Assembly: GCF_016132445.1 (NCBI RefSeq)
Contig: NZ_CP046056.1
Span: 682,001 to 746,000 of the forward strand
DNA from: Venatoribacter cucullus
GTDB taxonomy: Bacteria; Pseudomonadota; Gammaproteobacteria; Pseudomonadales; Oceanobacteraceae
Length of the DNA stretch: 64,000 nt
Direction of reading: 5' to 3'
A program made the position numbers and the translations under genes. The notes under the pieces were generated by a model that worked only from the letters and a program-made list of their open reading frames with translations, was not told where the DNA came from and ran no database searches. Positions 36,114 to 56,046 of this stretch are shown here, one piece after another. Every line of letters starts with the position of its first letter. Position 1 is the stretch's first letter.

Positions 36114-37253
36114 ATGGCATCATTAGGCTGTCTTCGGCTGAGTGCATTGCTCGCAGGCTGTGTCGTTGCCTTCCCCATGCTGGCTATGCAGCCACTGGAC
36201 GAGCAAAGCTTGTCGGAAGTGACTGGTCAGGCTCAGGGTTTACGCTATACCTCCGAGTACGACGCCCGTATCGATTCCATCTCCTACATCGATGACGATG
36301 GTATGGGGGATGGCAATGTCGGCATGCTGACGCTTTCTCCTGTCCGCCTCTATACACAAACCAACCGCCCGGTGCAGATCGACTTGGAAGTTAAGGAAGT
36401 GAACGGCCGCAAAGCGCTGGTGTTCACCAATCGTGACCTGCCCATCGAGACCGAAGTGGGTTCGTTTGCCATTAATGGCTATTCGCTGGGTGGTATTGGC
36501 CATGGCAACTTTCAGATTGGTACCGGTGACGCGCTGGTTACTACGCTCTATGCCGGTGGTAATGAAGGCAATGGTATTACCATTGATCTGGATATTCCCG
36601 GTTCTATGTCCTTTGACACCTGGCTGGAAGATGACGGTGCCCGTCTGACCGCGACGCTGGATTTTGGTGATCCGCGCAACCCGCTGGGCGGTGGTATGGC
36701 GCTGAAAAATATCTCCTTCGACCTGGAAGGTGATGGCCTGCGCATCGGCTTACCGGAAATTACCGATGGCAATGTTAACTTTTACAACGTCCGTATCGGT
36801 GATGATGTGCTGAACAGTGCGGCGCTGCGTAATGTGAACCTGCAGCCGGGTGGTTATCTGCTGGTGAAAAACGCCCGTGGCGCGGATGAAATCGGTATGG
36901 AAATGGACCTGCTGGTTAAAAAAGATTCCTCCCTCGACTTTGTCTATATCACTGGTGCCATTGGTGAGAACTACCCGGGCCCGAACGTATTTGAAATGTC
37001 GGCCAATATCAGCCTGGTGGATGATCTCAGTGTCCGCGGTATGCGCATGAACGTCGATGGTGAGCGTGGCCTGGTGTTTGATTTTGATAAAACCAATGCC
37101 CAGAGCGGTGTCAGCGGTAATTTGCTGGTCTCTGATTTCACAATGCAGCGCAGCGATAAGGTCGGCGTGGTTACTGACCCGGTGGGCATTGGCAGCATGG
37201 ATATTCAGATGAATCTGACCAATAACACCTACATGCAGATTGAGGGCCATTAA
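36114..37253 (+). CDS. exported VTGQ-motif protein 1 (FilA/DUF6160-like)
   Basis: This 379-residue protein has a signal peptide ending near PMLA. The mature protein opens MQPLDEQSLSEVTGQAQG, the short motif shared by five proteins in this cluster. The rest is rich in Gly, Asp and Asn with many short beta-strand-like segments and almost no Cys. As I recall, this N-terminal type occurs in DUF6160 proteins and in FilA of the putative Fil pilus system of Acinetobacter; I could not verify this. It is the first gene of the cluster and lies 1 bp before the next gene, so an operon is likely. Confidence 0.75.
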   Translation: MASLGCLRLSALLAGCVVAFPMLAMQPLDEQSLSEVTGQAQGLRYTSEYDARIDSISYIDDDGMGDGNVGMLTLSPVRLYTQTNRPVQIDLEVKEVNGRKALVFTNRDLPIETEVGSFAINGYSLGGIGHGNFQIGTGDALVTTLYAGGNEGNGITIDLDIPGSMSFDTWLEDDGARLTATLDFGDPRNPLGGGMALKNISFDLEGDGLRIGLPEITDGNVNFYNVRIGDDVLNSAALRNVNLQPGGYLLVKNARGADEIGMEMDLLVKKDSSLDFVYITGAIGENYPGPNVFEMSANISLVDDLSVRGMRMNVDGERGLVFDFDKTNAQSGVSGNLLVSDFTMQRSDKVGVVTDPVGIGSMDIQMNLTNNTYMQIEGH

Positions 37254-37254
37254 G

Positions 37255-38742
37255 ATGAAAAAAATCTGTCTGTGGGCCGGGTTGCCGCTGCTGTTGTCGT
37301 CGCCTCTGCTGAATGCCATGCAGGTTCTGGATGACGCAGGTATGGCCGAAATTTCCGGTCAGTCCGGTATTACCATTGAATTAACCACCAGTGATGCGGA
37401 AGGGCGTCTGGTGCAGACGGGTGAAATTCGTTTTACCGAACAGGATAACGACGGTGAGGGGGAAGATTATTTATCCATTGGTGGTCTGACGCTGCGCACG
37501 TTGGTCACCGACAATAATGGCAACGTTACCGGCGTTGATACCATTAAAACCACTATCGATGTGGATGCGGGCGGTAACGTCAGTATTAAGAGCAGAGACA
37601 TTAATACGCTGGACCTGGAACTGGGCGAAATTTCTTTCAGCGGTCGCGCCATGTTTGGTGGTGTGCGTTTATCAGTTTGGCAGTTTATCGGAGACAGCTA
37701 TCTTGAAACCGCTCTGCTGAATGATCCGTCCGGTTCAAAAATTGCCTTCCGTACCGTAATGGAAGCGGGCAGTGGTTTAACGTATCAATTTGATGAAGAT
37801 GGTGTGACCTTCAGCTCGGATGTGGTGTTTACCCCAGCTACCGGCGAGACGGCGTTCCGCAGTGAAATGTTCCTTACTGGTGATAATGACGGCCTGAAAC
37901 TGCAGGTGGGTGAGATGGTTGGCACCATTGAAATTCAGAATATTTCCATTCTCGATGAAAATGGCAACAACATCTTTGGTGCCAATAACTTTGGTGATGT
38001 GGGTTTCGGTGATATCAGTGTAAATCCGGCTGTCAGCTACTTCACCTTGTCGGCCAGCAAAGATCTCAATCGTGATGGTATTGAAGGTAAATTCAGTTCC
38101 GACATGAATATCGGCACCGTGTTTTACCGCACCGGTGATGAGCGTCTGAATGCCCGTAATGTGCAGTTGAATACCAACGGTGAACTCAGCTACCGGATGG
38201 ATTTTACCGATAACGGCTTTATTACCGGCCTTGAGGCCAGCATCAGTGATATTAACGATCTGGATCTGATTATTGGGGCGCTGACGTTATCTTCTGGTGA
38301 TGGCAGCAACGAATCGCTGAGTATGGGCAGTTACGCCATTGAAAATATGAATGTGACGAAGGCTGGCAATCAACCTGGCTCTGTCAATCTTGGCGTTTAC
38401 ACCATGCCAGGCAGTGGTGCTCAGGGTATGCAGATTGATCTTTCCATTGATGGTACCGCCAGTTTTGATCTCACCATTAAAGATGACCCGGCCAAAGTGG
38501 CTGGCAACCCGGATCCGCAGCTGACGGCAGAAATTGTGATGAATAACGTATCGCTGTCACAAAGCATCGATCAGACCAAAAAAGGTCTGCATATTGGTGT
38601 GGTGGATGCCAGCATGGATATGAATATTAACGCCATTAAAATGGGTGATGGTCAGACTTATCAGGGTCAGACCGGCCGTTTGGTAATGAACAATATGACT
38701 CTGCAACCGGGAAGTTATTTCCGGATCGAACCGCTCCAGTAA
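37255..38742 (+). CDS. exported VTGQ-motif protein 2 (FilA/DUF6160-like)
   Basis: This 495-residue protein has a signal peptide ending SPLLNA and a mature N-terminus MQVLDDAGMAEISGQSGI. A long repetitive beta-rich body follows (LDLELGEISFSG, GTIEIQNISILDENG, ADLTIKDD-like strands) with an Asn/Asp/Gly bias and no Cys in the mature part. The start is 37255 rather than an in-frame TTG five codons earlier. It follows protein 1 by one base and precedes the giant lectin gene by 13 bases. The function is unknown; a fibre or surface-layer subunit is an inference. Confidence 0.75.
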   Translation: MKKICLWAGLPLLLSSPLLNAMQVLDDAGMAEISGQSGITIELTTSDAEGRLVQTGEIRFTEQDNDGEGEDYLSIGGLTLRTLVTDNNGNVTGVDTIKTTIDVDAGGNVSIKSRDINTLDLELGEISFSGRAMFGGVRLSVWQFIGDSYLETALLNDPSGSKIAFRTVMEAGSGLTYQFDEDGVTFSSDVVFTPATGETAFRSEMFLTGDNDGLKLQVGEMVGTIEIQNISILDENGNNIFGANNFGDVGFGDISVNPAVSYFTLSASKDLNRDGIEGKFSSDMNIGTVFYRTGDERLNARNVQLNTNGELSYRMDFTDNGFITGLEASISDINDLDLIIGALTLSSGDGSNESLSMGSYAIENMNVTKAGNQPGSVNLGVYTMPGSGAQGMQIDLSIDGTASFDLTIKDDPAKVAGNPDPQLTAEIVMNNVSLSQSIDQTKKGLHIGVVDASMDMNINAIKMGDGQTYQGQTGRLVMNNMTLQPGSYFRIEPLQ

Positions 38743-38755: not shown

Positions 38756-41700
38756 ATGAAAAATAATTATAAAAATATCGTATTCACCATCGTTCTCACC
38801 GCTGCCTCAGTTGTTTCTGAGGCGGCTGTTCGTGCTGATGGAACCTCGGTCTGGTTTGCTGGTGCAACCACGGGTGGCTTAACTGCGCTGCAGGCGCAGC
38901 AGGTCAGTGCCGATACCGCCACCTTCTGGAATGGTGGGGAACCGAATGATTCCAGCAATGAAGATTGTGCCGTTCAGCAGGCATCCGGTGGCTGGAATGA
39001 CTTGTCCTGTACCAACAACACCAGTCGTCGTGCCGCCTGTTTTAACGGTTCTGACTGGGCTTTAACTGCCCCGGCAACCTCTATTCTGACCTCTGCCGCC
39101 AATTGTCCGGCCGGTTATTCTTATGCTGCACCCACAAACTTACAGCAACGCAATGCTCTGAGTGCACGTATCGTTGCTGCCGGTGCTGCTGATGTCTGGA
39201 TTAACGCTCTGGATAACGTTACGGAAGGTGTATGGGTATTTAATGCCGGTACAACGTCTGTCTTTGCTCCGTTCTGGAATGCTGGCGAGCCGAACAACTC
39301 CGGTTCAGCTGAACATTGTGCCGAGGTTCTTGCTTCAGGTCTTTGGAATGATCAGAGCTGCGGAGTAACCCGCCCGGTGGTGTGTGCCAACACGGATTTT
39401 ACCGCCTGGAACATTGCCAATAAAACCACTCCGGTTGCTTTCAATTCTCCCAATGAACTGCACGGTGTATGTCAGCAGGCGTTTGGTAATAACTGGAACT
39501 TTGCCGCTCCCCGCACGTTGGCAGAGCGTAATGCTTTGAGTGCTGCTTTAACCGCTGAAGCGGTTGCTTCTGCCTGGGTGAATGCCCGTGATTCTCAGGT
39601 AGAAGGTTACTGGATGCTGAACCATGGCCTGTTCAACTGGGCGGCCAGTCAGCCGGATTTTAACACCGGTATTTGTGCCACCATCCGTCAGACCGATGGC
39701 AAATGGATTTCTGCAGCCTGTGACAGCGAGGCCAAGCTGCTGTGCAGTGATGGTTATAACTGGGCGCTGCGTAATTTCGATCATCAGTTCAGCAATCAGG
39801 CGCTGGATGCCTGTAGCCGTCCGGATACTGAAACCCTGGACAATCCGTATGTAAATTACCGTCTGAAAACCCCGGTGACGGAAGGTGACCGCAGCCGTGC
39901 GGGTGCTCAGGTACAGGCAGCCGGTAACGGCATTGTGGCCTGGCTGAATATTAAACGCGTTACCGATGTTAACCGTTGGCTGATTAACGAAGACTACCGT
40001 GCGCCGGTAACGGCCGGTGGTGATCTGCGTAAAGTGGTTTGGTACGACCTGATTGAATCGGAAGGCGGTGGTTTATTTAATCCGAACCCAACGTTTTATG
40101 ACAACTGGCGCCGTTATGAAGATGGTGTAACCATCAACAGACAGCAAGCCGTAGAAGCCAACAAACAGTTACAGCCTTACTTTCGTGAAAGTGAGCCGAA
40201 TAATTCCGGCGCTTGTGTCCAGTTGTATATCAGCGATGGTTTATGGGACGACACCGAGTGTGACAACAGCAAGCGCGTTGCTTGTTTTAATGGTTCGCGC
40301 TGGGCCATTTCTCCCGACGCCACAGGACTGACAGAGACTAATGAAAATACCATCGTTGCCTCTGGTAATGCGGCTTGTGCACAAATTCCCAATGAAAATG
40401 GTGCGACCGGCGATTATAAATTTGCGGCACCGTTATCGTTCCAGCAAAGTCAGTTGCTGCAGGCTGTAGCTGCGGATGCCGGTGCTGGCGATGTCTGGAT
40501 TAATGCCAACGATAAAAAATACGCCAATACCTTTGTGTTCAACCTGGATATGGACGTTATGGCGCCGTTCTGGGGCGCGGGCGAACCCAATAATGCCGGT
40601 GGAAACGAAGATTGCGCCGTGCAGCGTAACGATGGTTTATGGAATGATCTGAATTGTGCCAGTGCACAACCTATCGCTTGTTATAACCCCTGGCTGGGTG
40701 CCAATGGCACCTGGAAAGTAACCGCAGCTAATTACACCTTTAGCAGCCCGGATCAGATGACTCTGCAATGTGAAGCGGAATTCGGTGGTCAGTATAAATT
40801 TTATGCCCCGGAAACCCTGAGCCAGCGCAATGCTCTGCAGGCGGCCAAACCAGCTGGTGTGAACGATGTATTTATCAATGCCGATGACCAGCAATCTGAA
40901 GGTACCTGGCAGTTAAACAAAGACATTAATAACTGGGCCGCCGGCCAGCCCAGCACCAGTACCAGCGAACTGTGTGTGGCAGCTTCCGCTACCGATTCCC
41001 AATGGCGTGCCCGCAACTGTACTCAGGCATTGCCGGTGGCCTGTACGTCCGGCGGTCGCTGGTATTTCACCAATGATCCCATCACGCTGAATGATTTTGC
41101 CAATGGTCAGGAAGCCTGCAGTGCTTTCGGTAATGGTTATTTATTCAATGCCCCGCGGTCGCTGAATGATGCCCGTATTATGCAACACCAGGCCAAGCTG
41201 GCTGGTATTGGTGGTGAGTACTGGATTAATGGTAACCGGCTGGAAAATTTTGCTACCTGGGAATGGAATCAGCGACGCCTGAAAACGCCTCTGTGGTCTT
41301 CCGTAGAGCCCAATGGCAGCACCAGCGAAAACTGTGCCGTGCTGACCAATAACCAGGAAGGCAGCTGGGCTGATGAACGCTGTAATACCGCCAGTAATTA
41401 TGCCTACCTGTGCCGTAATGGTAATAACTGGCAGGCATCGGTTATTACCGGTTCACTGGCTGATTTCTCTGCCGGTGTCAGCGCCTGTCAGGCCTTGGGT
41501 AACGGTTGGGTGTTTGCTGCCCCAGCCACATACAACGAGAACCTGGCCGCTAAAAATGCCATGGGCGGCGCGGCCAAGGTCTGGTTGAACGCCACCGATG
41601 CCATGAAAGAAGGCGCCTGGGTTCTTAATGCCGCGCCGATTGCAACCTACCCGGGCTGGGCCGCCGGTCAACCAGATAATGCCGGTATTAATGCCGCCGA

Positions 41701-44700
41701 TGAAACTGCATTGGTAACCGGTGAAGACTGTGTGTATCAGTCTGCTGATGGTTATTGGTATGACACTTCCTGTACTGCTGCTACCGAGTATCCCTGGGCC
41801 TGTACCGACGGCTACGTATGGAAGGTAACCCAGTCTCAGGGCCGGGCACAGAAACCGGCAGATGGCCACAAAGCCTGCTTCAGCGAATACGGTTCCACCT
41901 TCGTTTTTGCCGCCCCGTTAAATAAAAACGATTCTATTCAGATCGACTTTGCCCGTTTGCTAGCCGAAAGCGAACGCGCCAGCCCGATGAATGCCGTGTG
42001 GCTGAACATGAATGATGGCGCTTATGAAGATAACCGCAGTGGTGCTGCCGATGGCCGTCATTTCCGTAAAAATCAGCCCTATACCAATTGGGTTGATGCC
42101 TACCCGGGTGTCGAGCCAGTTAATACCTGTGCCTACAAATCCACCACCGCCGCTGGTACTAACAACCCCTGGCGCAGTGGCAGCTGCAGCAACTTTGCTG
42201 CCCATTATGCCTGTACCAACGGTGCCGGCTGGAAGGTGGCTACCTCTAAAGGCACGCTGGTCAATGGTTCACTGCAGATTACGCCGCAAGTGGGTGAAGA
42301 CTTCTGGTCTTACGAGCGCGGTACCCGTCTGTGTAAAGAACAATTCGGCGCAGAATATTATTTTGCCGCGCCGGTAACGGCAGCAGAAGATCTGGCGCTG
42401 GATGCGGCAATCCGCAACACCAATGCACAGGTTAAAAATACCTGGATTAACTATTACTTCGTTAATGCGATTAATCCGGAACATAACCCATGGTTCTCCA
42501 ATCGCATGAAAACCGGTATCTGGCAGAAACCGGAATTCCGCAACCTGAATAATTCCGACTGCGCAGTGCTGCACAATGACGGTTCCTGGACCGATGTGCC
42601 CTGCAACAGCACCTATGCCTTTGCCTGTTTCGATGGCAGCTGGAAAGTAACCGGTAACGGCCAGTGGAGTGAAGGGTTTGCCGCCTGTGACAATAATCTG
42701 GGTGGTAGCTTATTTGCTGTGCCGCGTACCCCGGATGAAATGGATCAGTTGCTGGCCAATATTGGTGCCGAGCCGGTATGGATTAACTTTACCGATACCG
42801 CGCTGGAATCGCAGTGGATTGCCAACCGTCTGCGCTTTACCTGGTGGAAAGCCGGCGAGCCCAGCAACAGCTTTAACCGCGATTGTGCCCGTATTGGTAC
42901 CGATGGCGAGTGGTACGCTGGTCGTTGTTCGATTGAACAGGCGGCGTTTGCCTGCCGTCGTATTGCCGGCAACAACATTGAATGGTTTGTAACCACCGGC
43001 AAAGGCACCTGGGCGGAAGGTTTTGGCTATTGCGCCAGTGAATTCCCGGGCAGTGAATTTTATACCCCGCAAGGTTTTGCCAATAACTCTGCCAAAGCGG
43101 ATCAGCTGGTACTGGCTGCGGCCGTCACCGCCGCTGGTCAGGATGCCTGGCTGAACCTGAGCGATCAGGAAGCCGAAGGCAGCTGGCGTTCGCATCAGGC
43201 TTATAACGACTGGGGCGTCAGCAGTCTTATTGATCAGAACAACGACTGTGCCTATCTGAGCCGGGTGGCCAGTGGTACCGGTACCTGGTATGCCGATAAC
43301 TGCAAATACACCGCATCGGCCCCGGTATCCCGTGGCTATGCCTGTACCGATGGCTATGAATGGAAACTGGTGAATACCGCTGCTGATACCAGCATGCGCT
43401 GGTCCGAAGGTTTCAGCGCCTGTCAGACCCTGGGTACCAACTGGCGCTATGCAGCGCCGGCGGATGCAGTTAACAACGCCAAGCTCAAGCTGGCCATGGA
43501 ACTTGGTGGTCTTGAGCAGGTGTGGGTTAACGCTCAGGACCGGACCAGTGAAGGTAACTGGCAGGTGAATGGCCCGGAAACCAACTTTGCACCGGCCGCC
43601 AATCTCAGTGCAGTAGCGACCGTGGTGGCGGAAAATACCAGCAATATTCAGCTGCTGGCCACCTTGGAAGACGATGAAGAAATGGGGGTTGCCAGTGCCA
43701 GCTGGACTCTGGTTTCTGACAGTCGCTTTGCCGATGTCGCCAGTTCCGACATTGTTGTAAGCAACAATAATCTGGTCGCTGGTGCGGCAGGCTCTGCCAC
43801 CGTTACCGCGAGCTACAGCACGCCGGTACTGCTGAAAGACGATGTGATTCTGACGTTCCGCTTAACCGCGACGGATATTCCGCCGGGTACCGCCGTGGCC
43901 GCAACCTCTGAAACCTTTGTCACCGTGCGCGTAAAAGCCCCGTTACTGGCTGGCTGGAATTTCAATAACAACGCTTTACCGCAGCAGGATTTCTCCGGCA
44001 ACAATCAGGATGCCCTGAATACCGTATCCAACCCGATGCCGCCGGTGGTTAATGGTGCTCTGTCTGTTAGTCCGGGTCAGCGTATGGTTGTTCCGGGTCT
44101 GGCGGCCAAGCCTAATGGCGGGCTGGATATTCCTGCTGATGAATACAGTGTGGCCTTCCGTATCAGCATTGAAGATGCACCGACCGGTAACTGGCGTGGC
44201 ATTCTGCAGAAAGGGGATGACGGTCTGGCTCGTCAGCCGGGGGTTTTCCTGTACCCCAATGACAATACTCTGCACAGCAGTAACAGCACCAGCGCCAGCT
44301 CTAATCAGGTGGTGAATATTCCTGGTCTGCTGGATCGTCAATGGCTGAATGTGGTGTACAACAAACGTGCTGATGGTTTCGATATTTATATCGATGGCGA
44401 TTTAACCGGCAGCTTTGATTTTGCTGCAGGTGAAACCTCGGTTGGTAACAACGGTAATTTCTACGTGGGCCAGGTTCCGGGTGCCGCAGAGTCGTTCACT
44501 GGCCTGATTGATGATATTCAGATCTTTAACCGCCAGTTGTCTGCCGCTGAAATTACCGCCGTATTGCCGCCACCGCCAGCTGGCGTGGTGCAGTTCAGCG
44601 GCAGCAGTGTGCAGGTTGATGAAGACAGTGGCAGTGTAACTGTTGCGTTGGAGCGCAGCCGTGGCAGTAAAGAACCGCTGACGGTGTATGTGGATCTGGA

Positions 44701-46999
44701 TACTGCCAACAGCACTGCCACGCTGGGAACCCAGGCCGATATGGCCACCGCCACCAATCCGGCTGATCTGGCTTTTGGTGCAGCCTATGTTAATGGCACA
44801 GGGATGCCGGTCAGCTGGCCTGCCAATACCCGTGGCACGCAGAATGTGGTGATTACCCTGGATAATGCCGACGACGAACAGCGTGAAGGTACGGAAATTG
44901 CCCGTCTGCGTCTGGCTGACCTGGCCAATGCCAGTGCCGGCCAAGCCAGCAATTTCAACCTGCGTCTGAATGACGTAACCCCTAACCCTTATGGCAACTT
45001 CTCGGTGGTTGCTCCGGATCCGGCGGTGGTACTGGAAACCAACTCTGCGGTACAGCAAATCTGTATTAAGCGCGAGTCTGGCTCTCAGGGTGAAGTGAAT
45101 GTGAACTACAGCACCAGCGGTTCAGCCCTTGCCGGTACTGACTTTAACTATCAGGCCAGCGGCATTGTACCGACAGCCAATACCGGCACCGTGGTCTTTG
45201 CCGATGGTGACAGTGCCGACCAGTGCTTCGATGTGGTGGTTACAAATGACACTGCCATTAATGGCGCCGATCGTACTCTGACCGTATCTCTGACGGGGTT
45301 GAATCACGCTGCGGGATTAGACCCGATTTTAACCATGCAGAATCAGGCCCAGCTGTTTATCCGTGACTATGCGCCCGGTGAGTTTGCCTTTGAAACGGAT
45401 AGCTACAGCTGCAAAGAACCAAACACCTCGGCAACCGTACCCGATGAATTACGGGCCAGCCCGAATGAGCTGGTCTGTGAAATCCGGGTTAAACGCAGTA
45501 ACACGTCCGTTTATGCACCGGCTGCGACCCTGAATGTGGTTGCCCCGGCATCTACGGGATACAGCTTCACCAGCCAGCTGCAGTGGCATGAAATTACACC
45601 GGTTACTCCGGCCACCACGGCGACTGAAACCCAGATTATTACCTTCACAATCGCTAACGACGATGTGCAGGAAAATAATGAAGTGGTGGGGATCAGCCTG
45701 ACGCCGACGAACGGTGACGGCCATGATGAGGTTATCGCTGCCACCAATGGTGTGGCTAACCTGACCATTGTCGACGTAACCAGCCCGGCGTTGGTCATTA
45801 TTAATGAAAATATTCCTCCGGTTTTTGAAGGACAGAAGCTGGTTGTCGACATACAGCGTAGTGGAAACCCTGCTACGGATTTTGATGTATCACGCTATGT
45901 TGAAGTGTTGAATAAAGCAGCGGGAAAAACAGATAGTGACTATCTGGCGTTTGAATATTCATCACCTGCTTTACAATCCGGAACGATTAATTTTGATCCG
46001 GTCGCTACAGTTCCTCAGAACAGCCAGTTGATAATTCGGACCAAAGATGTTCTGTTTAATAGTAATGACTATCAGGTACGGGTTACTTTGCAGAATCCGG
46101 CACCTTCACGTGTGGTTGGGCTTGGCTCATTAACCAGCGCTAATAAAGACAATGATGTTAATAAAACCTTCCGGGATTTTGTTATCAGTAACGACATCAG
46201 TGTGAATGACCTTATTTCACTGTCTTCAACAGCACTCAGTAATAATGCTGAAGCTGGCGGTAAGTTTTATCCGATTGACAACTTCCTGGGGGCACGAGCA
46301 AAAGCTCAGGTGAGTTTTACCGTGCCACCCCGTGAATCAGTGAATAAAAAACACAACATTATTAATTACCGTTGGGAATGGATTAATGCAAATGGTGCAG
46401 TGTTTACCACTGGCGCTACTACATCCGGTAACTTTGCATACACTGACGCAATGAATGAGTCAGCAAGGACGCGTTCGATCAGTGTTGATCTGCCATATAC
46501 CTCCAGTACCGATATTTTGTCGCAGTTACGTCTGACCGTATGGGGAGGAAACTCCACCAATATGGCTGAAGCCGATGAGGTTTATGTAACCCAGGAAAAT
46601 ATTATTACGACTCCGCGCTGGAGACGTTTGAAGTTTGGATCAGACCGATGTGTGGCGTTTGATTCGGGTGAAGGTCGCTATGAAGCCAATAATTGCGCCA
46701 ACTCAGTCGTTGCGGGTGAGCTTTGGACATATAATCCGATCAGTAATCAGATGATCAACAAAGGTGATAATGCCTGTGCTGATGGCACCGGAGATCTGGG
46801 TAAAAAGGCTTGTAATGAAAACCCGACCACCTGGACGTTGGTAAAAGATGGCGAAAGCCTTAATGTTAAACGTACTGCTAATGGCGAGAAGTGGTGTCGT
46901 ATGGGGACAAATCAACGTATTAACGTGCGTAATCTCCTCGATGATGTATTAGCTTGTACTGGTGGTGACGATCTGTTTGTATGGGGTGAAGACCAATGA
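38756..46999 (+). CDS. giant exported protein with about 12 tandem C-type-lectin-like units
   Basis: This 2747-residue protein starts with a signal peptide (about 1-23). Residues about 30-1610 consist of roughly 120-residue repeats of the type VW(I/L)NA.D...EG.W, W..GEPNN....EDCAV...G.WND..C...AC. EPN motifs stand at 62, 178, 480, 610 and 851 with variants QPD at 299, QPD at 972 and EPS at 1368. WND/WDD motifs occur at 80, 197, 497 and 629. These match the Ca2+/mannose-type EPN and WND signatures of C-type lectins. A LamG-like domain follows (about 1728-1935), then about four Calx-beta-like repeats (1942-2450) and a Cys-containing C-terminus (about 2620-2747, WRRLKFGSDRCVAFDSGEGR) like a ricin-B-type lectin. 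A surface or secreted glycan-binding adhesin is inferred. The last kilobase is visibly richer in A+T. Confidence 0.85.
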   Translation: MKNNYKNIVFTIVLTAASVVSEAAVRADGTSVWFAGATTGGLTALQAQQVSADTATFWNGGEPNDSSNEDCAVQQASGGWNDLSCTNNTSRRAACFNGSDWALTAPATSILTSAANCPAGYSYAAPTNLQQRNALSARIVAAGAADVWINALDNVTEGVWVFNAGTTSVFAPFWNAGEPNNSGSAEHCAEVLASGLWNDQSCGVTRPVVCANTDFTAWNIANKTTPVAFNSPNELHGVCQQAFGNNWNFAAPRTLAERNALSAALTAEAVASAWVNARDSQVEGYWMLNHGLFNWAASQPDFNTGICATIRQTDGKWISAACDSEAKLLCSDGYNWALRNFDHQFSNQALDACSRPDTETLDNPYVNYRLKTPVTEGDRSRAGAQVQAAGNGIVAWLNIKRVTDVNRWLINEDYRAPVTAGGDLRKVVWYDLIESEGGGLFNPNPTFYDNWRRYEDGVTINRQQAVEANKQLQPYFRESEPNNSGACVQLYISDGLWDDTECDNSKRVACFNGSRWAISPDATGLTETNENTIVASGNAACAQIPNENGATGDYKFAAPLSFQQSQLLQAVAADAGAGDVWINANDKKYANTFVFNLDMDVMAPFWGAGEPNNAGGNEDCAVQRNDGLWNDLNCASAQPIACYNPWLGANGTWKVTAANYTFSSPDQMTLQCEAEFGGQYKFYAPETLSQRNALQAAKPAGVNDVFINADDQQSEGTWQLNKDINNWAAGQPSTSTSELCVAASATDSQWRARNCTQALPVACTSGGRWYFTNDPITLNDFANGQEACSAFGNGYLFNAPRSLNDARIMQHQAKLAGIGGEYWINGNRLENFATWEWNQRRLKTPLWSSVEPNGSTSENCAVLTNNQEGSWADERCNTASNYAYLCRNGNNWQASVITGSLADFSAGVSACQALGNGWVFAAPATYNENLAAKNAMGGAAKVWLNATDAMKEGAWVLNAAPIATYPGWAAGQPDNAGINAADETALVTGEDCVYQSADGYWYDTSCTAATEYPWACTDGYVWKVTQSQGRAQKPADGHKACFSEYGSTFVFAAPLNKNDSIQIDFARLLAESERASPMNAVWLNMNDGAYEDNRSGAADGRHFRKNQPYTNWVDAYPGVEPVNTCAYKSTTAAGTNNPWRSGSCSNFAAHYACTNGAGWKVATSKGTLVNGSLQITPQVGEDFWSYERGTRLCKEQFGAEYYFAAPVTAAEDLALDAAIRNTNAQVKNTWINYYFVNAINPEHNPWFSNRMKTGIWQKPEFRNLNNSDCAVLHNDGSWTDVPCNSTYAFACFDGSWKVTGNGQWSEGFAACDNNLGGSLFAVPRTPDEMDQLLANIGAEPVWINFTDTALESQWIANRLRFTWWKAGEPSNSFNRDCARIGTDGEWYAGRCSIEQAAFACRRIAGNNIEWFVTTGKGTWAEGFGYCASEFPGSEFYTPQGFANNSAKADQLVLAAAVTAAGQDAWLNLSDQEAEGSWRSHQAYNDWGVSSLIDQNNDCAYLSRVASGTGTWYADNCKYTASAPVSRGYACTDGYEWKLVNTAADTSMRWSEGFSACQTLGTNWRYAAPADAVNNAKLKLAMELGGLEQVWVNAQDRTSEGNWQVNGPETNFAPAANLSAVATVVAENTSNIQLLATLEDDEEMGVASASWTLVSDSRFADVASSDIVVSNNNLVAGAAGSATVTASYSTPVLLKDDVILTFRLTATDIPPGTAVAATSETFVTVRVKAPLLAGWNFNNNALPQQDFSGNNQDALNTVSNPMPPVVNGALSVSPGQRMVVPGLAAKPNGGLDIPADEYSVAFRISIEDAPTGNWRGILQKGDDGLARQPGVFLYPNDNTLHSSNSTSASSNQVVNIPGLLDRQWLNVVYNKRADGFDIYIDGDLTGSFDFAAGETSVGNNGNFYVGQVPGAAESFTGLIDDIQIFNRQLSAAEITAVLPPPPAGVVQFSGSSVQVDEDSGSVTVALERSRGSKEPLTVYVDLDTANSTATLGTQADMATATNPADLAFGAAYVNGTGMPVSWPANTRGTQNVVITLDNADDEQREGTEIARLRLADLANASAGQASNFNLRLNDVTPNPYGNFSVVAPDPAVVLETNSAVQQICIKRESGSQGEVNVNYSTSGSALAGTDFNYQASGIVPTANTGTVVFADGDSADQCFDVVVTNDTAINGADRTLTVSLTGLNHAAGLDPILTMQNQAQLFIRDYAPGEFAFETDSYSCKEPNTSATVPDELRASPNELVCEIRVKRSNTSVYAPAATLNVVAPASTGYSFTSQLQWHEITPVTPATTATETQIITFTIANDDVQENNEVVGISLTPTNGDGHDEVIAATNGVANLTIVDVTSPALVIINENIPPVFEGQKLVVDIQRSGNPATDFDVSRYVEVLNKAAGKTDSDYLAFEYSSPALQSGTINFDPVATVPQNSQLIIRTKDVLFNSNDYQVRVTLQNPAPSRVVGLGSLTSANKDNDVNKTFRDFVISNDISVNDLISLSSTALSNNAEAGGKFYPIDNFLGARAKAQVSFTVPPRESVNKKHNIINYRWEWINANGAVFTTGATTSGNFAYTDAMNESARTRSISVDLPYTSSTDILSQLRLTVWGGNSTNMAEADEVYVTQENIITTPRWRRLKFGSDRCVAFDSGEGRYEANNCANSVVAGELWTYNPISNQMINKGDNACADGTGDLGKKACNENPTTWTLVKDGESLNVKRTANGEKWCRMGTNQRINVRNLLDDVLACTGGDDLFVWGEDQ

Positions 47000-48420
47000 G
47001 AAATGAAGTATCCATCGGCTTATTTTGTTTGCTGGTCAGCTCATCTGCCTTCGCCATGCAACCCCTGGATGAAACCCAGCTGGGTGAAGTCACCGGCGAG
47101 GGTATCGGTGCCACCTTTGATAGCGTAGTGATCTACTCCGGCGACTACGGTCAGCCGGATGATTTCCGCCTGCGTCTGCGCCTTACCGAAGGTTCAGATG
47201 CCGAGTCGGTGATTCTGAGTGAACTGCGCTTTAACCGCTCCGGTGCCACGCCGGGGAAGGCCAACAGCGGCGGTTTTTTCGGTACCTACGATGACCCTTT
47301 TGTTATTGGTGATCTGCGTGAGATTACCGAACGACATGTTGGTTTAATTGATCCGGAAGGTGACGGAACCTTTGTTACCGGCAGTCGTGTACACACGGCT
47401 TTTTATGCTGGTTTTCCGGCCGCTGATTTAACCCAGAAAGAACGGGGGTTCTACGATTGGTCTGGTAATCGCTTGGGCGTCGAGAATCGTGCAGACCGTT
47501 ATTCCAGTGAGTCGGTTTCATACTATCGGGGCTTGCCTAACGACTTCTTTGCCAATAAGCCCATCAGTATTGGTAGCTTGACCAGCCTTAGTCAGGAGTA
47601 CGCGGCGTATTTGCAGGAGCAGGAAGACCAGCTGGATCTGGCAACCAATAAGTTCGATCTGCATTTCCGTATTGATACCATTACCGATCAGAACCGTACG
47701 TTAAGCACAGATGATCAGTTTCTGGCTTATGCCGATCTGGAAGGTGTGCGCCTGTATGGTACCAGCGCCATGATCTGGGGCCACAGCAGCCAGGGTGAAA
47801 CCCTTTCCGCAGCCAATCTGGCGCGTTATGAAAATAACGGCCAGCCGGTGTATGCCGACCGTGGTCTGGCCATGGCCGTTAATATTGGTTTACGTGCCGA
47901 TGCTATTCGCTTAACCGCCGATCCGTCCGGTGCCGCTGCCAGTATGCTGGAGTTGCGTGGTGTGGATGCCTACTTGCCATTGGGGAGCGTTGATCAGCCG
48001 CTGACCATCAGTACCGTGCAGTTTGCGCAGATTCAGCGGGGAACCTGGAAAAATCCAACGTATTTACCGGCGACCACGCAGTTGCGCATGGAAATTGCCG
48101 GTTTGCCGCAAGACGTTGGGCAGGCACCGCAAGGCAATATTTTTATCCAGTCGATGGCCTTTGGTGACCCAAATGACCCTGAGCTGATTACCGGGGTTGA
48201 AGATATTTTCCTGCGTGATGCCAGTGGTAATATTGTAGCCACTTACGATAATGTTACTCACCGGGCCTTTGTGCCAAAAACGGTTATTTATAACGAACAG
48301 GTTGCGGTTTACAACGAGGCCAATCCGAATAATCAGATCCCCTTTATTCCGAATCAGAACGTTGTTGAGATCCGTGGTCTGGAAATCCAGCGTCTGGTTA
48401 TTACGACTCAGGACTTATAA
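46996..48420 (+). CDS. exported VTGQ-motif protein 3
   Basis: This 474-residue protein has a signal peptide ending SSAFA and mature N-terminus MQPLDETQLGEVTGEGIG. The body has long beta-rich segments and a short helical stretch (LSQEYAAYLQEQEDQLDLA, about 195-213). Its start overlaps the stop of the giant lectin gene (ATGA), so the two are translationally coupled and probably made in fixed ratio. I know no function. It may be the partner that anchors or exports the lectin. Confidence 0.7.
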   Translation: MRNEVSIGLFCLLVSSSAFAMQPLDETQLGEVTGEGIGATFDSVVIYSGDYGQPDDFRLRLRLTEGSDAESVILSELRFNRSGATPGKANSGGFFGTYDDPFVIGDLREITERHVGLIDPEGDGTFVTGSRVHTAFYAGFPAADLTQKERGFYDWSGNRLGVENRADRYSSESVSYYRGLPNDFFANKPISIGSLTSLSQEYAAYLQEQEDQLDLATNKFDLHFRIDTITDQNRTLSTDDQFLAYADLEGVRLYGTSAMIWGHSSQGETLSAANLARYENNGQPVYADRGLAMAVNIGLRADAIRLTADPSGAAASMLELRGVDAYLPLGSVDQPLTISTVQFAQIQRGTWKNPTYLPATTQLRMEIAGLPQDVGQAPQGNIFIQSMAFGDPNDPELITGVEDIFLRDASGNIVATYDNVTHRAFVPKTVIYNEQVAVYNEANPNNQIPFIPNQNVVEIRGLEIQRLVITTQDL

Positions 48421-48422
48421 CA

Positions 48423-48890
48423 ATGAAAAAAATTATCCTGATCAGCGCGTTACTATCCTCGGTTAGTTATGCCGGCATGAGTGAACTGAATGAAGCAGAA
48501 ATGCAGCAGGCTTCCGGGCAGGCAGGTATTACCCTGAGTGCTGGCATGGAGTTCGATACCGGAACCCGCATCAGCTACACCAACGAAGATGCCGAATACG
48601 ATGACAACACCAAGGAATACTGGCTGGTGCTGGATAATATGACCGGTGGGGTGGAGTTCAAAAACATGAAAATTGATCTGGTGAATAACTTTGGCCCGGC
48701 CGGTACCGCCGGTGCCATTCAGGTGACCTTACCGGAAGAAGTGAATTTTGATGAACTGTCGGTTGAAGGGGTTTATCTGGGGCCAGGTAAAACGGTTACT
48801 GAAAACCATCAGTTTATTATGGGGGTGGATGTCGACGGACAGTTACAGTTCCCGGCTGAAACCCGTATGAATATTTTTGCAATCAAGTAG
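48423..48890 (+). CDS. exported VTGQ-motif protein 4, short
   Basis: This 155-residue protein is the smallest member. The signal peptide ends SYA and the mature N-terminus is GMSELNEAEMQQASGQAGI. The remaining 110 residues show alternating hydrophobic strands (WLVLDNMTGGVEFKNMKIDL) and no Cys. Its start is 2 bp after the previous stop. Size and composition fit a minor subunit or a cap of the same assembly, which is an inference. Confidence 0.7.
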   Translation: MKKIILISALLSSVSYAGMSELNEAEMQQASGQAGITLSAGMEFDTGTRISYTNEDAEYDDNTKEYWLVLDNMTGGVEFKNMKIDLVNNFGPAGTAGAIQVTLPEEVNFDELSVEGVYLGPGKTVTENHQFIMGVDVDGQLQFPAETRMNIFAIK

Positions 48891-48898: not shown

Positions 48899-50071
48899 AT
48901 GAACAGAATAATAAAAATGACATTACCTGCGATACTGGCTTTCTGGTCTGCCATTGGTATTGCTGGTATGCAGCCAATGGATGAGGATGCCTTGGCTGAT
49001 ACCTACGGTCAGGCAATTTTTGAAGTAACCGATCAGGTCGTTAACCAGGATGGTGGTGCTGATCTGCGGATGTTGCGGATGACCATGGGTGCCCGTATTG
49101 AGATTAACGCCAACATTGAAGAGCTGGCGTTGGGTCGTTACTGGCGTCCGGAAGGCACCAACTGTATTGGCGGTGCTAACGGCCAGGTGTGTTACAACAA
49201 CATTATTCCTGCTTCATACAACGACAATATTAACTGGGCCTGTACGGGCAACCCCTGCGGTAACGTTGGTTTGTCGGATTCTGATTATCTGTCTTCAGAA
49301 AAGACGCATAACGTGGGTGAGATGAGTTTCTTTGACTACCCGGGTGGTTTTGAGCCGGATGGCGGTGTTGATATTAAACTGCGCGATGTCACCATGGGCC
49401 AAATCCGTGACAAGGGTAACGGACAGTATGAAATGCTGCCTATGGTGCAGGAAAACCCTTATTTCGAATTTGCTTTTGATGAAACTTCCGGCGCCCGTAA
49501 GCTGGTGGGCTTCCGGCTTGGTTTTGAAAATACGCTGGGGTATCAGGGGAATATCATTGACGTAATCAGTGGTTTTATCCGCCCGACCATTACTGCAGAT
49601 TCAAAGTTACTGGGTTTGAATGTCGGGGCTATTAAGCTGGAAGCATTCCTTGGTGGGGCGCGGACTATTGGTTTCCTGGATAAAAACACCATGACCCTGG
49701 ATGCAACCGGTGGCTTAACCGGTCTGCTGGTTTCTGACCGTGAATCGCTGATTGGCCAATCACCGCATGCACAGCTGTTTCCGGTGCAGTCCATTTTCCT
49801 GAATAATACCCCCAGCTTCTTTTTCAGTGTGGGTACCCGTTCTATTCAGTGGAGCCCGACTCAGGGTTTTTCACCTGAAATTACCCGTCCGGGCTTCTGG
49901 CTTAACCTGGGTGGTGATGGTGGTCTGATTGCAGAAACCCAGAAAGGCTCGCACCCGAATAACTACTTCCCGGGGCATCCGAACCATTCTGTTTACAGTG
50001 CTAACGAGAACTATGGTGACGTAGCTAATCTGCCCTCCTGGTCGCAAACCTACCGCAATAACGGTTACTGA
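48899..50071 (+). CDS. exported VTGQ-motif protein 5
   Basis: This 390-residue protein has a signal peptide ending near GIAG and mature N-terminus MQPMDEDALADTYGQAIF, the most divergent copy of the motif. It has four Cys close together (residues about 82-122: NCIGG, VCYNN, WACTGNPCGN), which could form two disulfides, unlike the other members. It is the last gene of the cluster, 8 bp after protein 4, and is followed by a strong terminator. Function unknown. Confidence 0.7.
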   Translation: MNRIIKMTLPAILAFWSAIGIAGMQPMDEDALADTYGQAIFEVTDQVVNQDGGADLRMLRMTMGARIEINANIEELALGRYWRPEGTNCIGGANGQVCYNNIIPASYNDNINWACTGNPCGNVGLSDSDYLSSEKTHNVGEMSFFDYPGGFEPDGGVDIKLRDVTMGQIRDKGNGQYEMLPMVQENPYFEFAFDETSGARKLVGFRLGFENTLGYQGNIIDVISGFIRPTITADSKLLGLNVGAIKLEAFLGGARTIGFLDKNTMTLDATGGLTGLLVSDRESLIGQSPHAQLFPVQSIFLNNTPSFFFSVGTRSIQWSPTQGFSPEITRPGFWLNLGGDGGLIAETQKGSHPNNYFPGHPNHSVYSANENYGDVANLPSWSQTYRNNGY

Positions 50072-50256: not shown

Positions 50257-50913
50257 TTAAATGCTGTAGGTTTTTATTCCTGCAGGCATGGCACTGGGAA
50301 AGCTGGCCTGGCTGTTATTGTTTTCAGCGGTCAGATGCTTCAGTGCCGGCATTCCATTCACAAATTCAAAGCTGTGCAGCTGATTGTGGCTGACATACAG
50401 CTTACTCAGCTCCGGTAATGCCAAAGCTTCCAGGGAGCGCAGCTCGTTGTGGCTGGCGTTCAGGCTGCTTAACTGCTGTAACGACTGCAGTGGACTGGCA
50501 TCCTGAATGCGGTTGTAGCTGATATCCAGCCAGCTCAGCCCGGCCAGCTCGCCCAGCCCGGCAACAGACTGGATGGCATTATTTCGCAGGTTCAGTACCC
50601 GCAGCGCCGTAAATTGTTCCAGGCCAGCCAAGCTGGTGATCTGACTGTGCGGGCATTCCAGTATTTGCAGCTGATTAACTGTACTGATCCCGGTGGCCTC
50701 AATACAGGCGCGCAGATTCGCATCGTCAATGAGCTGATAATCAGGCGCAACAAACAGGATTGCTTTGTCAGCCGTGTCAGATTCTGAGACAGAAGGAATA
50801 ACCGCTGCAGGGGCCGTAGCTTCTGCAGAAGATCCGGAACCACCGCCGCTGCAGCCGGTAAGGGCGGCACTGACGGCAATAGCCAATGTCAGTTGGGACA
50901 AGGACGCTTTCAT
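50257..50913 (-). CDS. leucine-rich-repeat lipoprotein
   Basis: This 218-residue protein has a lipobox ALTGC (Cys near 21) followed by a Gly/Ser linker (SGGGSGSSAEA). About six SDS22-like LRRs then span 85-205: LRVLNLRNNAIQSVAGLGEL, LSWLDISYNRIQDASPL, LSSLNASHNELRSLEAL. Such lipoproteins bind proteins or glycans at the cell surface or in the periplasm. Two Cys before the repeats (ACIEATG, LECPHS) could cap the solenoid by a disulfide. It diverges from the TonB-dependent receptor across 321 bp, so the two may share control. Confidence 0.85.
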   Translation of the reverse strand: MKASLSQLTLAIAVSAALTGCSGGGSGSSAEATAPAAVIPSVSESDTADKAILFVAPDYQLIDDANLRACIEATGISTVNQLQILECPHSQITSLAGLEQFTALRVLNLRNNAIQSVAGLGELAGLSWLDISYNRIQDASPLQSLQQLSSLNASHNELRSLEALALPELSKLYVSHNQLHSFEFVNGMPALKHLTAENNNSQASFPSAMPAGIKTYSI

Positions 50914-51167: not shown

Positions 51168-51234
51168 GCCGCCTGTTCATAAGGGTGGCCGTACCTCGGT
51201 TGCCTGAAGTTTGTGTATTCCTTCAGGGGGCAAG

Positions 51235-54231
51235 ATGAAAGCAACTAAAGTGCTGCTGGGTGCAGCCTCATACCTCGTCGCGGCGCAACTGCTGGCGGGT
51301 GAGGCGGTGTTTTACATAACTGAAGATGGCAGCGCCGTGCGTGACCTGGCTGTCTCGGTCAATGGCCAGAAAAAACTGATTGGTTCCTCCGGTTTTGTAA
51401 CCTTCGATATTGGTTCAGGTAATTACCGGGTTGAACTGTCCAAGTATGGTGAATACGTTGGTGAATTTGACTTCACTGCCAACAGCAGCAAGGAAAATGC
51501 TGAAATTCAGGTAGAGCTCATCGGTGGCGAAGCCATGGCCGATGTAAACCTCTATGTGCCGGGCGATGAAGCAACGCCGGCGCTGGGGCAGCTGTCTGGC
51601 TTTATTCAGTCGGATGAGACCGGTGGTGGTGTAGCGGGTGCCAGTGTAGTGGTGAATGGCACCGAGCAAGCCATCGTAACCGACGATAAAGGCTACTTCA
51701 GCCTGGAACTGCCGCGCGGTGATTATTCATTGGTTATTGCCCACCCCAACTACGGCAAGCGCGACGTTAAGTCAGTGCGGGTAATGGGTAATGTGAACAC
51801 CGGCCTGAATCTTACCCTCAGCATGTCCGGCGACGGCATGATCGAAGAAGTGGTAGCAGTGGGTTCTTATATTCCCTCTACTGCTACTGCGCAGCAGCGG
51901 GATTCCAGTGCGGTGCTGAATGCGATTGGGGCAGAGCAGTTAGCCCGCTTCGGTGATTCCAGTGCCGCGTCAGCATTAAAGCGTGTAGCCGGTGTGTCTG
52001 TTGTTGGTGGGCAATTTGCCGTGGTACGTGGCATGCAGGGGCGCTATATCTCATCCACCCTGAATGGCAGCTTAATGCCCAGTACGGATCCTATGCGCCG
52101 TGATGTCCCGCTGGATTTATTTCCGGCCAGCGTCTTAGGTGGCATTGAAATTCAGAAAACCTTTACACCGGATCTTCCAGGTGATTCAACCGGTGGCGCA
52201 ATCAGGATGAAAACGAAAGAGATGCCAACTGAGTCTTCTGGCAAAGTTGCTGTATCACTGGGAATGAATACCCGTACTACTTTTGAAGATTATGTGAGCT
52301 ATAAGGGTGGAGATCTGGATTGGCTCGGAATTGATGATGGTACCCGTGAGCAACCATCTTATGCTGAAAATATTACCAACGGCGGTATGGATTCCCCTCA
52401 GTTTGGTTGTAATTTCTCATTTTGTCGGCCTCTCTCTGAGCAGATCCGACTCGCAAATTCCTTTGAGAATATTTATAACCTGAAAACAAAGACCGCTGCA
52501 CCCGATACAGGATTTTCACTGGCTCTCAGTGATTACAATGAAAAAGATTTTGGTGGTACCGGCAGTTATTTTGCTTTGCAATATAAAAATGAAACAGATA
52601 GTCGTCATAAGGCAAGACTTAATGATGTCAGTGAGGTTGGTTCTTATGAACGAAGTCAGCAAAAAATAGATCTGACAGGCTATTTTGTTTATGGGTTGGA
52701 TTACGGCACTAATCATTACGAAAGCAAAACGATTCTTTTACGAAAAACTGATGATACCGTGCGGTTCGATAAGACGGTAGATGATAGTGCTGGCTATGAG
52801 GTTGAGAAAACACTGCTGCAGTGGGTTGAACGTCAATATATTGGCCAGCAGTTTTCTGGTAGTCACTATGTAAATTTACTGGGTGAGGATGAGGTATCGT
52901 GGCGCGTCGGTTTCAGCCAGACATCACGTTATGAGCCGGATCGCCGTTACTATGAATACGGTGCCAGTGAGGGCGCTGATAAACTGAACCTGTTGGGTTC
53001 CGTAGAAAGACGCTACTCAGATCTTACTGAGGATTCATTGGATTTTGGACTTGATTACACATCCGATATTACCTTTGGTAGCAGCTTATTTCGCTTAAAA
53101 ACAGGTGTGCTTTTAAACCAGAAAGATCGTACAGTGGATGTTGCTCGTTATGAGAACAAATCCATCACAACGTTAGATACAACTCAGTCTTTGGAAGATT
53201 TGCTTTCCAAAGAAAATATTGATGCTGGCGTTATTCAGATTAACGGATCGACTGCTGATACCGATGATTATGATGCAACGGATGAAACCCTGGCAGCCTA
53301 TGTGTCTGGTGAATTGGATTTCGGTTTAGTATCCGTTCTGGCTGGTGCGCGAGTCGAAGATTTTAAGCAAACGCTGGAGTATCCGGGTTCATCAGGTAGT
53401 GATAGTGAACTGTCCGAAACCAAAGTATTGCCGGTTTTATCGGCAGTTTTACGGCTCACAGATGATTTTCAGATTCGTGGTGGTGTAAGTCAGACGCTGT
53501 CAAAGCCTGGCCTTACAGAGCGCTCTGAATCGGCTCAGTATGACCCCGAAACAGAGAAGCTGATGGTTGGCAATCCCAATCTTAAAATTTCAGAAATTCT
53601 CAACGTTGATTTAAGAGCGGAATATTATTTCTCGGAAGATGAAAGTATTTCATTGGCCGCTTTCTATAAGGATGTTACTGATCCGATTGAGCGCTCTGTC
53701 CTTGATGGAAGTGGCAGTGCGGCGGATGGTTATACTTTTTCAAACGTACCCAGTGCCACTCTGCAAGGGCTGGAGTTGGATTTTCGAATCAATGCCTATA
53801 GCGGCGATTCTTGGTCATCATTTGTTGGCGGTAACTTCGCTTATATTGATTCGGAAGTTGACTTAAGTGGTACCGATGCTGAGCGTCTGGAAGGTATTTC
53901 AAAACGTCAGCTGCAGGGACAGTCTGAATATTTAGTGAATATTCAACTAGGTTTTGATCACTTGCCAACAGGTCAATCTTTAACCATCTTGTTTAATTAT
54001 TTTGATGATCGAATTTATGCTGCAAGTCGTGGTCAGTTGGCTTCTGAGGTTGAAGATGGCCGTTATTCTCTGGATCTGACCTATCAATACGACATCAGTG
54101 AAACGCTGAATATTAAGGCGAAGGCGTCGAATATTACTGACGAGAAAGTTAGCTACTCAAGAGATTCTACTGAGATTGAAAGCTATTACAACGGTGCCAA
54201 CATATCAGCATCGTTAGAGTATGTTTTTTAA
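51235..54231 (+). CDS. TonB-dependent outer-membrane receptor with CarboxypepD-like N-terminal domains
   Basis: This 998-residue receptor has a signal peptide (ends LLAG). An extra Ig/transthyretin-like domain (about 23-105) and a carboxypeptidase-regulatory-like domain (about 118-200; GASVVVNGTEQAIVTDDKGY) follow. The plug comes next (IEEVVAVGSYIPS; LKRVAGVSVVGGQFAVVRGM), then a 22-strand-type barrel ending in SASLEYVF with a terminal Phe. The start at 51235 has AGGGGGC about 4 bases upstream. From about 52.2 kb the DNA is richer in A+T. The substrate is unknown; the Pho-box-like promoter suggests a phosphorus compound. A hairpin separates it from the downstream lipoprotein. Confidence 0.92.
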   Translation: MKATKVLLGAASYLVAAQLLAGEAVFYITEDGSAVRDLAVSVNGQKKLIGSSGFVTFDIGSGNYRVELSKYGEYVGEFDFTANSSKENAEIQVELIGGEAMADVNLYVPGDEATPALGQLSGFIQSDETGGGVAGASVVVNGTEQAIVTDDKGYFSLELPRGDYSLVIAHPNYGKRDVKSVRVMGNVNTGLNLTLSMSGDGMIEEVVAVGSYIPSTATAQQRDSSAVLNAIGAEQLARFGDSSAASALKRVAGVSVVGGQFAVVRGMQGRYISSTLNGSLMPSTDPMRRDVPLDLFPASVLGGIEIQKTFTPDLPGDSTGGAIRMKTKEMPTESSGKVAVSLGMNTRTTFEDYVSYKGGDLDWLGIDDGTREQPSYAENITNGGMDSPQFGCNFSFCRPLSEQIRLANSFENIYNLKTKTAAPDTGFSLALSDYNEKDFGGTGSYFALQYKNETDSRHKARLNDVSEVGSYERSQQKIDLTGYFVYGLDYGTNHYESKTILLRKTDDTVRFDKTVDDSAGYEVEKTLLQWVERQYIGQQFSGSHYVNLLGEDEVSWRVGFSQTSRYEPDRRYYEYGASEGADKLNLLGSVERRYSDLTEDSLDFGLDYTSDITFGSSLFRLKTGVLLNQKDRTVDVARYENKSITTLDTTQSLEDLLSKENIDAGVIQINGSTADTDDYDATDETLAAYVSGELDFGLVSVLAGARVEDFKQTLEYPGSSGSDSELSETKVLPVLSAVLRLTDDFQIRGGVSQTLSKPGLTERSESAQYDPETEKLMVGNPNLKISEILNVDLRAEYYFSEDESISLAAFYKDVTDPIERSVLDGSGSAADGYTFSNVPSATLQGLELDFRINAYSGDSWSSFVGGNFAYIDSEVDLSGTDAERLEGISKRQLQGQSEYLVNIQLGFDHLPTGQSLTILFNYFDDRIYAASRGQLASEVEDGRYSLDLTYQYDISETLNIKAKASNITDEKVSYSRDSTEIESYYNGANISASLEYVF

Positions 54232-54247
54232 ATTCTGTAATAAAGAT

Positions 54248-54285
54248 GAAACATAGTTAGGGAAAACTATGTTTCGGGATTTTTA
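54248..54285 (+). terminator. terminator/attenuator between receptor and lipoprotein genes
   Basis: GAAACATAGTT (54248-54258) pairs perfectly with AACTATGTTTC (54265-54275) around AGGGAA, followed by GGGATTTTTAA. Position inside the probable operon suggests partial termination and unequal expression of the two genes. Confidence 0.7.
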
Positions 54286-54318
54286 ATTAACTCTGATAAA
54301 ACCTATCGAGGAAGTACC

Positions 54319-55788: not shown

Positions 55789-55808
55789 TACAGACTCAGT
55801 TATATGAG

Positions 55809-55836
55809 ACGGCGCCTCCGGGCGCCGTTTTTTTTT
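55809..55836 (+). terminator. terminator of the receptor-lipoprotein unit
   Basis: ACGGCGCC-TCCG-GGCGCCGT is followed by nine T. Confidence 0.95.
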
Positions 55837-55860
55837 GCGGCTCTGGCGTCACAATTTCAG

Positions 55861-55922: not shown

Positions 55923-55926
55923 GCAC

Positions 55927-55987: not shown

Positions 55988-56046
55988 GAGCGCGAATTTA
56001 AGGTGCCTGGCAGTCAGGCGAACAATGAACAGAACGGGTAAAGGTT

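Follow-up and report, generated by a model that had tools for sequence, protein, structure and literature searches.

The tandem repeats of a giant protein in Venatoribacter cucullus are very probably circularly permuted C-type lectin-like domains

C-type lectin-like domains in described systems

The chain of an ordinary C-type lectin-like domain (CTLD) comprises strand b1, helices a1 and a2, strand b2, a long loop with the EPN motif, strand b3, strand b4 with the WND motif, and strand b5. In long-form CTLDs such as that of mannose-binding protein (MBP), the cysteines are spaced as C1, approximately 70 residues, C2, 14 residues, C3, 8 residues, and C4. Here, we analysed a stretch of 64,000 nucleotides of the V. 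cucullus genome (the window), in which an open reading frame (38756–46999, + strand, ATG start) encodes a giant protein of 2747 aa. Its repeats contain the same two halves as the CRD of MBP and the collectins (PF00059), with the four cysteines near-identically spaced (C2–C3 ca. 14 and C3–C4 ca. 8 residues) and, in units 1, 2, and 5, the EPN, E, and WND ligand residues; however, the halves are swapped in the giant and its domains end in the long loop. Furthermore, collectins are collagen-stalked trimers, whereas the giant is a bacterial tandem array. In the mannose receptor family (MR, Endo180, PLA2R, and IgY receptor), a single chain carries CTLDs in tandem, of which only a subset have working Ca2+ sites, and the profile of the giant matches Endo180, PLA2R, and the IgY receptor; the domains of this family are nevertheless in canonical order, whereas the inter-domain linker of the giant is the long loop.

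The CTLD fold has been described as extremely robust, with its two ends adjacent to each other (PMC6468738). In snaclecs, the long loop serves as a hinge for the exchange of parts between CTLDs (PMC6468738), although this swap takes place between two chains with unchanged order, whereas the order in the giant is permuted in the gene itself. Intimin and invasin are also bacterial adhesins of the CTLD fold, but their CTLD-like domains are compact, with the long loop replaced or missing (PMC6468738), and are not permuted. No description of a circularly permuted CTLD was found in the open-access papers searched. The units of the giant are homologous to CTLDs but fail the canonical chain-order feature (b1-a1-a2-b2-long loop-b3-b4-b5), and we interpret them with high confidence as naturally circularly permuted CTLDs with new ends in the long loop.

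With respect to its operon, the giant resembles Fil of Acinetobacter (FilA–F) and the Fap amyloid of Pseudomonas in that its partners are of the FilA/DUF6160 type, and the genome has FilA, FilB (a C39 peptidase), and the outer-membrane proteins FilC and FilD elsewhere. It differs from both in that FilB, FilC, and FilD are located outside the operon, and the Fil and Fap literature cited here mentions no CTLD protein. FapD, the C39 peptidase of Fap, acts in the periplasm on a target that is unclear (PMC5557850).

The giant protein and its putative calcium sites

The order of gene neighbours around the giant is kept in relatives at approximately 26%–76% protein identity, and the protein starts with a Sec-type signal peptide (residues ~1–23, judged by eye). 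A C-type lectin relationship, proposed in an earlier note on this DNA, was confirmed by seven stretches matching Pfam Lectin_C (E 2.4e-62), and homology was also evident from matches of the A4 profile to human MBP (E 1.7e-14) and SP-D (E 3.7e-14). Every Lectin_C match of the whole 2.83 Mb genome fell inside this ORF alone, and none of 14 control genomes had any match; an NCBIfam search of the giant gave no match. The array is followed, as the same note had described, by a Laminin_G_3/concanavalin A-like domain (LamG; 44126–44554, residues 1791–1933, E 1e-15) and a Calx-beta domain (45017–45367, residues 2088–2204, E 3.5e-12), both recognised by Pfam, and by a Cys-rich C-terminal domain (46649–46996) with six Cys and WTYNP and WxW-like motifs. 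The Cys/W pattern of this last domain had raised the suspicion of a ricin-type beta-trefoil, which was rejected: Pfam gave no match and BLAST matches to ricin domains were insignificant. The giant gene was broken in one MAG (L033/L064), with an ORF of 1806 aa and the next operon gene approximately 2.9 kb further on, a frameshift or an assembly error. One Oleispira MAG had array genes on two contigs (L069 and L070; frames of 1736 and 1338 aa), representing a duplicate or a mixed bin.

When units were framed in the permuted order, that is, with the half bearing C2–C4 (B half) ahead of the half bearing C1 (A half), the corresponding profile gave exactly twelve matches to the giant (residues 52–1616, each E 1.5e-16 or better), in agreement with the approximately 12 repeats counted previously. 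A full Ca2+ ligand set, defined as EPN + E + WND (site-2 ligands), was found in only three of these units: unit 1 (38909–39259, residues 52–168), the first half of which lies directly after the signal peptide, unit 2 (39263–39625, residues 170–290), and unit 5 (40550–40927, residues 599–724), the centre of the AF2 model described below. The sites of unit 7 (41270–41659, residues 839–968; EPN/E/WAD) and unit 8 (41645–42055, residues 964–1100; QPD/E/WYD, a galactose-type motif) are near-complete. The other seven units fail: unit 3 (39632–39997, residues 293–414; QPD/G/WIS, a degenerate site), unit 4 (40160–40552, residues 469–599; EPN/G/WDD), unit 6 (40919–41278, residues 722–841; QPS/E/WRA), unit 9 (42062–42460, residues 1103–1235; no Ca2+ motif), unit 10 (42497–42826, residues 1248–1357; no EPN), unit 11 (42821–43195, residues 1356–1480; EPS/R/WYA), and unit 12 (43184–43603, residues 1477–1616), which ends in a C1/helix/WVN half with no C2–C4 after it. 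All lie on the + strand. The motifs are located at residues 62, 178, 480, 610, and 851 (EPN), 299 and 972 (QPD), 731 (QPS), and 1368 (EPS), and the EPN positions listed in the earlier note were correct and its QPD and QPS motifs were confirmed; an extra EPN at residue 2221 is beyond the array. Binding and structural units had been suggested to alternate, an idea that we abandon because the full ligand sets are clustered towards the N-terminus.

Because all ligands sit in the B half, the permutation leaves the Ca2+ site intact. Unit 1 has EPN/E/WND in each of the eight 12-unit arrays and in one of the two 10-unit arrays, and unit 5 keeps it in most 12-unit arrays. The full set was absent everywhere from units 9–12, the block common to the giant and Oleispira, and none of the corresponding four-unit Oleispira arrays had it. 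The multivalent Ca2+-dependent lectin proposed previously is thus retained for at most units 1, 2, and 5, and perhaps 7 and 8, and is given up for units 9–12 and all four Oleispira units, which are siteless. Judging from these motifs, we read the array as a stalk that lacks sites, preceded by a region nearer the N-terminus that bears putative Ca2+ sites. With 9 of the 12 units lacking a full set and the Oleispira arrays having none, glycan binding may be neither the main nor the ancestral role, and the prospects that the giant functions as a Ca2+-dependent adhesin appear evenly balanced.

The permuted array could alternatively be purely structural, a disulfide-stapled spacer holding the LamG, Calx-beta, and Cys-rich tail off the cell, in which the Ca2+ sites of units 1, 2, and 5 would be loop stabilisers or remnants. 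This explanation fits the observation that siteless units 9–12 and all Oleispira units contain most of the columns that are invariant between genera, but it is at odds with the retention of EPN/E/WND in units 1 and 5 described above, and of EPN/Q/WDD in 12 of the 15 modules attached to PI-PLC-like proteins (see below). A spacer of this kind is possible, if somewhat doubtful.

Order of the halves in arrays, single units and a predicted model

The array of the giant contains 12 C2-C3-C4 triplets, the first of which (residues 71-85-95) has no preceding C1, and its last C1 (residue 1556) is without subsequent C2–C4. The Cys order per unit is C2-C3-C4-C1, in 12 sets of four with long-form CTLD spacing. 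In all 16 relatives fetched from the same family as the window organism, as in the giant, the signal peptide is immediately followed by a C2-C3-C4 half, and the last element of the array is an unpaired C1 half (C1 and two helices). Their triplet counts were 12, 10, 9, and 4; the swapped-frame profile gave 12, 10, 9, or 4 complete matches in the relatives and 12 in the giant, and only in the swapped frame do such whole-number unit counts arise. In a permuted CTLD, the old ends b5 and b1, which are neighbours in the fold, would be joined by a short ‘[ND]G’ turn, and the chain would be opened in the long loop, yielding a unit of the form EPN-C2-WND-C3-C4-turn-b1-C1-a1-a2-b2-‘EGxW’. Adjacent domains would then be linked via the long loop, the carrier of the Ca2+/sugar site in animal lectins. 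The linkers from C4 to the next b1 are approximately 4 residues in length, with turns such as TNG or FDG, and suit a hairpin. Since b1 and b5 are adjacent strands in CTLDs (PMC6468738) and a short turn joins C4 to b1, the permutation is physically plausible; it predicts C4–C1 disulfides 20–40 residues apart. The CTLD homology of the tandem units described in the earlier note was thus upheld, whereas their ordinary boundaries were not, each physical domain in all likelihood being a circular permutant.

In every array, each end half supplies what the other lacks, and ordinary CTLDs might be completed by these halves through ring closure or in a head-to-tail fibre, long-loop swapping between CTLDs being known in snake venom lectin-like proteins (PMC6468738). 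However, the number of units ranges from 4 to 12, and complementing ends leave both the single swapped units and the AF2 model presented below unexplained, making this arrangement very improbable.

A boundary inside the array is consistent with permuted units. The block-B cap (40019–40159, + strand, residues 422–468; GGDLRKVVWYD...) between units 3 and 4 is similar to the start of the mature chain in relatives (E 1e-7 to 7e-5 in a phmmer comparison with only 17 sequences), and a cap-like GGD[LI]..V[WY]YD segment opens the 9-unit arrays of L036 and L037. On this evidence, the 12-unit array is composite: blocks of three and nine units meet in the long loop, where the N-terminal cap is repeated, and the cap marks a boundary of whole permuted units within that loop. 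Human MBP (1HUP) matched the swapped profile in two pieces (profile 50–114 to chain 32–89 and profile 3–44 to chain 97–138), and at the level of sequence comparison such matching in exchanged order is the formal signature of circular permutation. Canonical tandem proteins, e.g., PLA2R, likewise give short profile matches across a domain boundary, and arrays alone would therefore not decide the frame. A Mantel test on the co-divergence of half-distances gave mixed results, favouring neither pairing. It is the single-unit proteins and the AF2 model, rather than the arrays by themselves, that decide the frame.

Short proteins matching only Lectin_C positions ~60–106 also surfaced in the family search, and most were PI-PLC-X-like enzymes of 404–768 aa. 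A single complete swapped unit (E 4e-31 to 5e-36) was located behind the enzyme in each of 15 PI-PLC-like or related proteins, and in many of the PI-PLC-like proteins the stop codon follows 0–11 residues past the unit; L044, for instance, ends in EGKWVAN. Because the lone unit is in swapped order and the stop codon is often immediate, an ordinary CTLD is impossible in these single-unit chains. In three genomes, two swapped units follow the signal peptide and precede a subtilase domain (Pfam was run on one of these proteins), and a protein of 1722 aa (L112) has three permuted CTLDs mid-protein and no other Pfam domain. Thus, counting the arrays and the PI-PLC-like, subtilase, and three-unit proteins, at least four architectures contain a whole number of swapped units.

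For structure prediction, three consecutive halves, B5-A5-B6 (residues 596–765), were submitted to AF2 with 46 aligned sequences, an input that is frame-neutral in leaving both pairings open. The model had a pLDDT of 91.1 and a pTM of 0.81; in ten-residue blocks, the pLDDT was 90–97 for B5-A5 (72 for the first ten residues) versus 87–90 for B6. The b5 strand in B5 lies beside b1 (model residues 45–48 and 58–60), and B6 is without b5. The best Foldseek matches in the PDB were CTLDs (SP-D, collectin-11, CD23, and MBP-C), none with E < 0.001, and in the long alignments the canonical pairing A5 + B6 superposed at only ~15 Å in sequential order. VIA-align also returned CTLDs throughout, each row spanning one half; the low score (best Z 4.4) is due to only half-domains being aligned. 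Model residues 51–129 matched CTLD N-terminal halves over 65–74 residues at 1.9–3.1 Å (e.g., 1rdi residues 114–178, 65 aligned, 1.9 Å), and residues 130–170 matched CTLD C-terminal halves over 41 residues at 1.0–1.6 Å (e.g., L-selectin 74–119, 1.0 Å). As these matches come half by half, both halves derive from the CTLD fold, and in this model A5 does not pack on B6. The earlier note had named an unrelated predicted fold as evidence against its proposal; the superposition of the halves on CTLD halves at 1.0–3.1 Å left that proposal standing. From the model confidence and the strands, we infer that A5 is packed on B5, i.e., that the two halves of one permuted unit form the domain. A second model, of the four units 9–12 (A3), had a pLDDT of 61.7 and no PDB match and carries little weight; its low-confidence stretches coincided with the long loops that separate permuted units, and b5 was missing from its last half. 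Ordinary tandem CTLDs resembling those of the mannose receptor family, with a disordered or degenerate orphan half at each end, would accord with the Pfam Lectin_C matches in the ordinary frame and with the fact that both frames read equally well in a continuous array, with co-divergence favouring neither, but they are scarcely credible given the orphan half found at either end of the array in every relative, whether of 12, 10, 9, or 4 units, PI-PLC-like single swapped units that are unable to form an ordinary domain, the failure of A5 and B6 to pack as a CTLD in the pLDDT-91 model, and ~4-residue C4-to-b1 linkers that suit a hairpin.

Operon, distribution and implications

The order of six genes (36114, 37240, giant, 46996, 48423, and 48899) is kept in Thalassolituus, Bacterioplanes, and Oleispira. 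The five partners, all on the + strand, are three DUF6160/FilA-type genes at 36114–37253 (leader-like motif LDEQSLSEVTGQ), 37240–38742 (LDDAGMAEISGQ), and 48423–48890 (LNEAEMQQASGQ), a gene with no Pfam match at 46996–48420 (LDETQLGEVTGE), and a gene with a sub-threshold DUF6160 match at 48899–50071 (MDEDALADTYGQ). DUF6160 was above the Pfam cut-off in three of the five and below it in one more, and NCBIfam FilA scores were far under the cut-off. In all five, the pattern [LM][DN][EDQ]xx[LM]xx[VIAT]xG[QE] stands immediately behind the Sec signal peptide, with no other match in the six-frame translation of the window; as the pattern was drawn from these five proteins, this reflects specificity and not significance. 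We take the spacing of this 12-residue motif to be like that of a double-glycine leader with G-Q, and periplasmic C39 peptidases (FilB/FapD) could recognise it. The FilA of the same genome (L126:3500-4360) also has the motif. The sole C39 peptidase match of the genome is FilB, encoded in a separate FilABCD locus at 1.377–1.393 Mb (L126). FilB is similar to FapD, and FilC to the Fap amyloid porin FapF, suggesting that Fil and Fap are related secretion systems. A search of the operon of the giant for FilB, FilC, and FilD, and for an anchor or dedicated secretion gene, found none. We would guess that the partners, and perhaps also the giant, are exported by the Fil machinery. A surface fibre, as previously suggested, would be consistent with the signal peptide and the operon of FilA-like proteins.

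Downstream of the operon, a leucine-rich-repeat lipoprotein-like gene (50257–50913, − strand) is kept in most relatives including Oleispira, and an adjoining TonB cluster (51211–61105) encodes a TonB-dependent receptor with a carboxypeptidase-like N-terminal domain, a 489-aa lipoprotein-like protein, DUF3450, two MotA/ExbB proteins, TonB_C, and a TPR protein.

Arrays were found in the family of Thalassolituus, and a three-unit protein in another family. Any swapped unit was detected in 23 of 294 genomes of the order (16 of 118 genera) and in 4 of 368 other genomes in the class sample; these included further single-unit members in other families of the order and of class Gammaproteobacteria. 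The profile found none in the 397 others of the phylum sample (398 genomes including that of the window) and gave no match in a search of plasmids. The secreted PI-PLC-X-like family (L044–L058, L073–L102, and L127–L130) has one C-terminal permuted CTLD, and some members add ricin-B, jacalin, or Mucin2_WxxW. The two-unit subtilase proteins (L113, L114, and L115) are secreted and come from large genomes (5.9–6.8 Mb) in another family of the order.

A permuted CTLD array acting as a secreted rod or adhesin made with FilA-like proteins is a likely joint explanation for these features. The twelve units would form the rod, with up to five Ca2+-site units in its N-terminal part (1, 2, and 5, and perhaps 7 and 8) and the four siteless units as a stalk, followed by LamG, Calx-beta, and the Cys-rich domain; the protein would most likely serve marine hydrocarbon degraders as an adhesin of the surface or matrix, co-made with the five FilA-like proteins. 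With the Ca2+/sugar loop as the connection between neighbouring domains, a pulling force on the array might act directly on the binding sites and render glycan binding by the rod force-dependent, although we regard this as unlikely.

A natural permutant cut in the long loop implies that the sugar-binding loop of a CTLD can act as a hinge between domains. It also implies that the topology in which the fold has spread among bacteria is one whose boundaries ordinary domain annotation places wrongly: Pfam domains on arrays straddle two physical domains, and single-unit proteins show only half a domain. Lectin engineering would gain a new scaffold in the permuted CTLD, which would also define a candidate family of adhesins among marine oil degraders.
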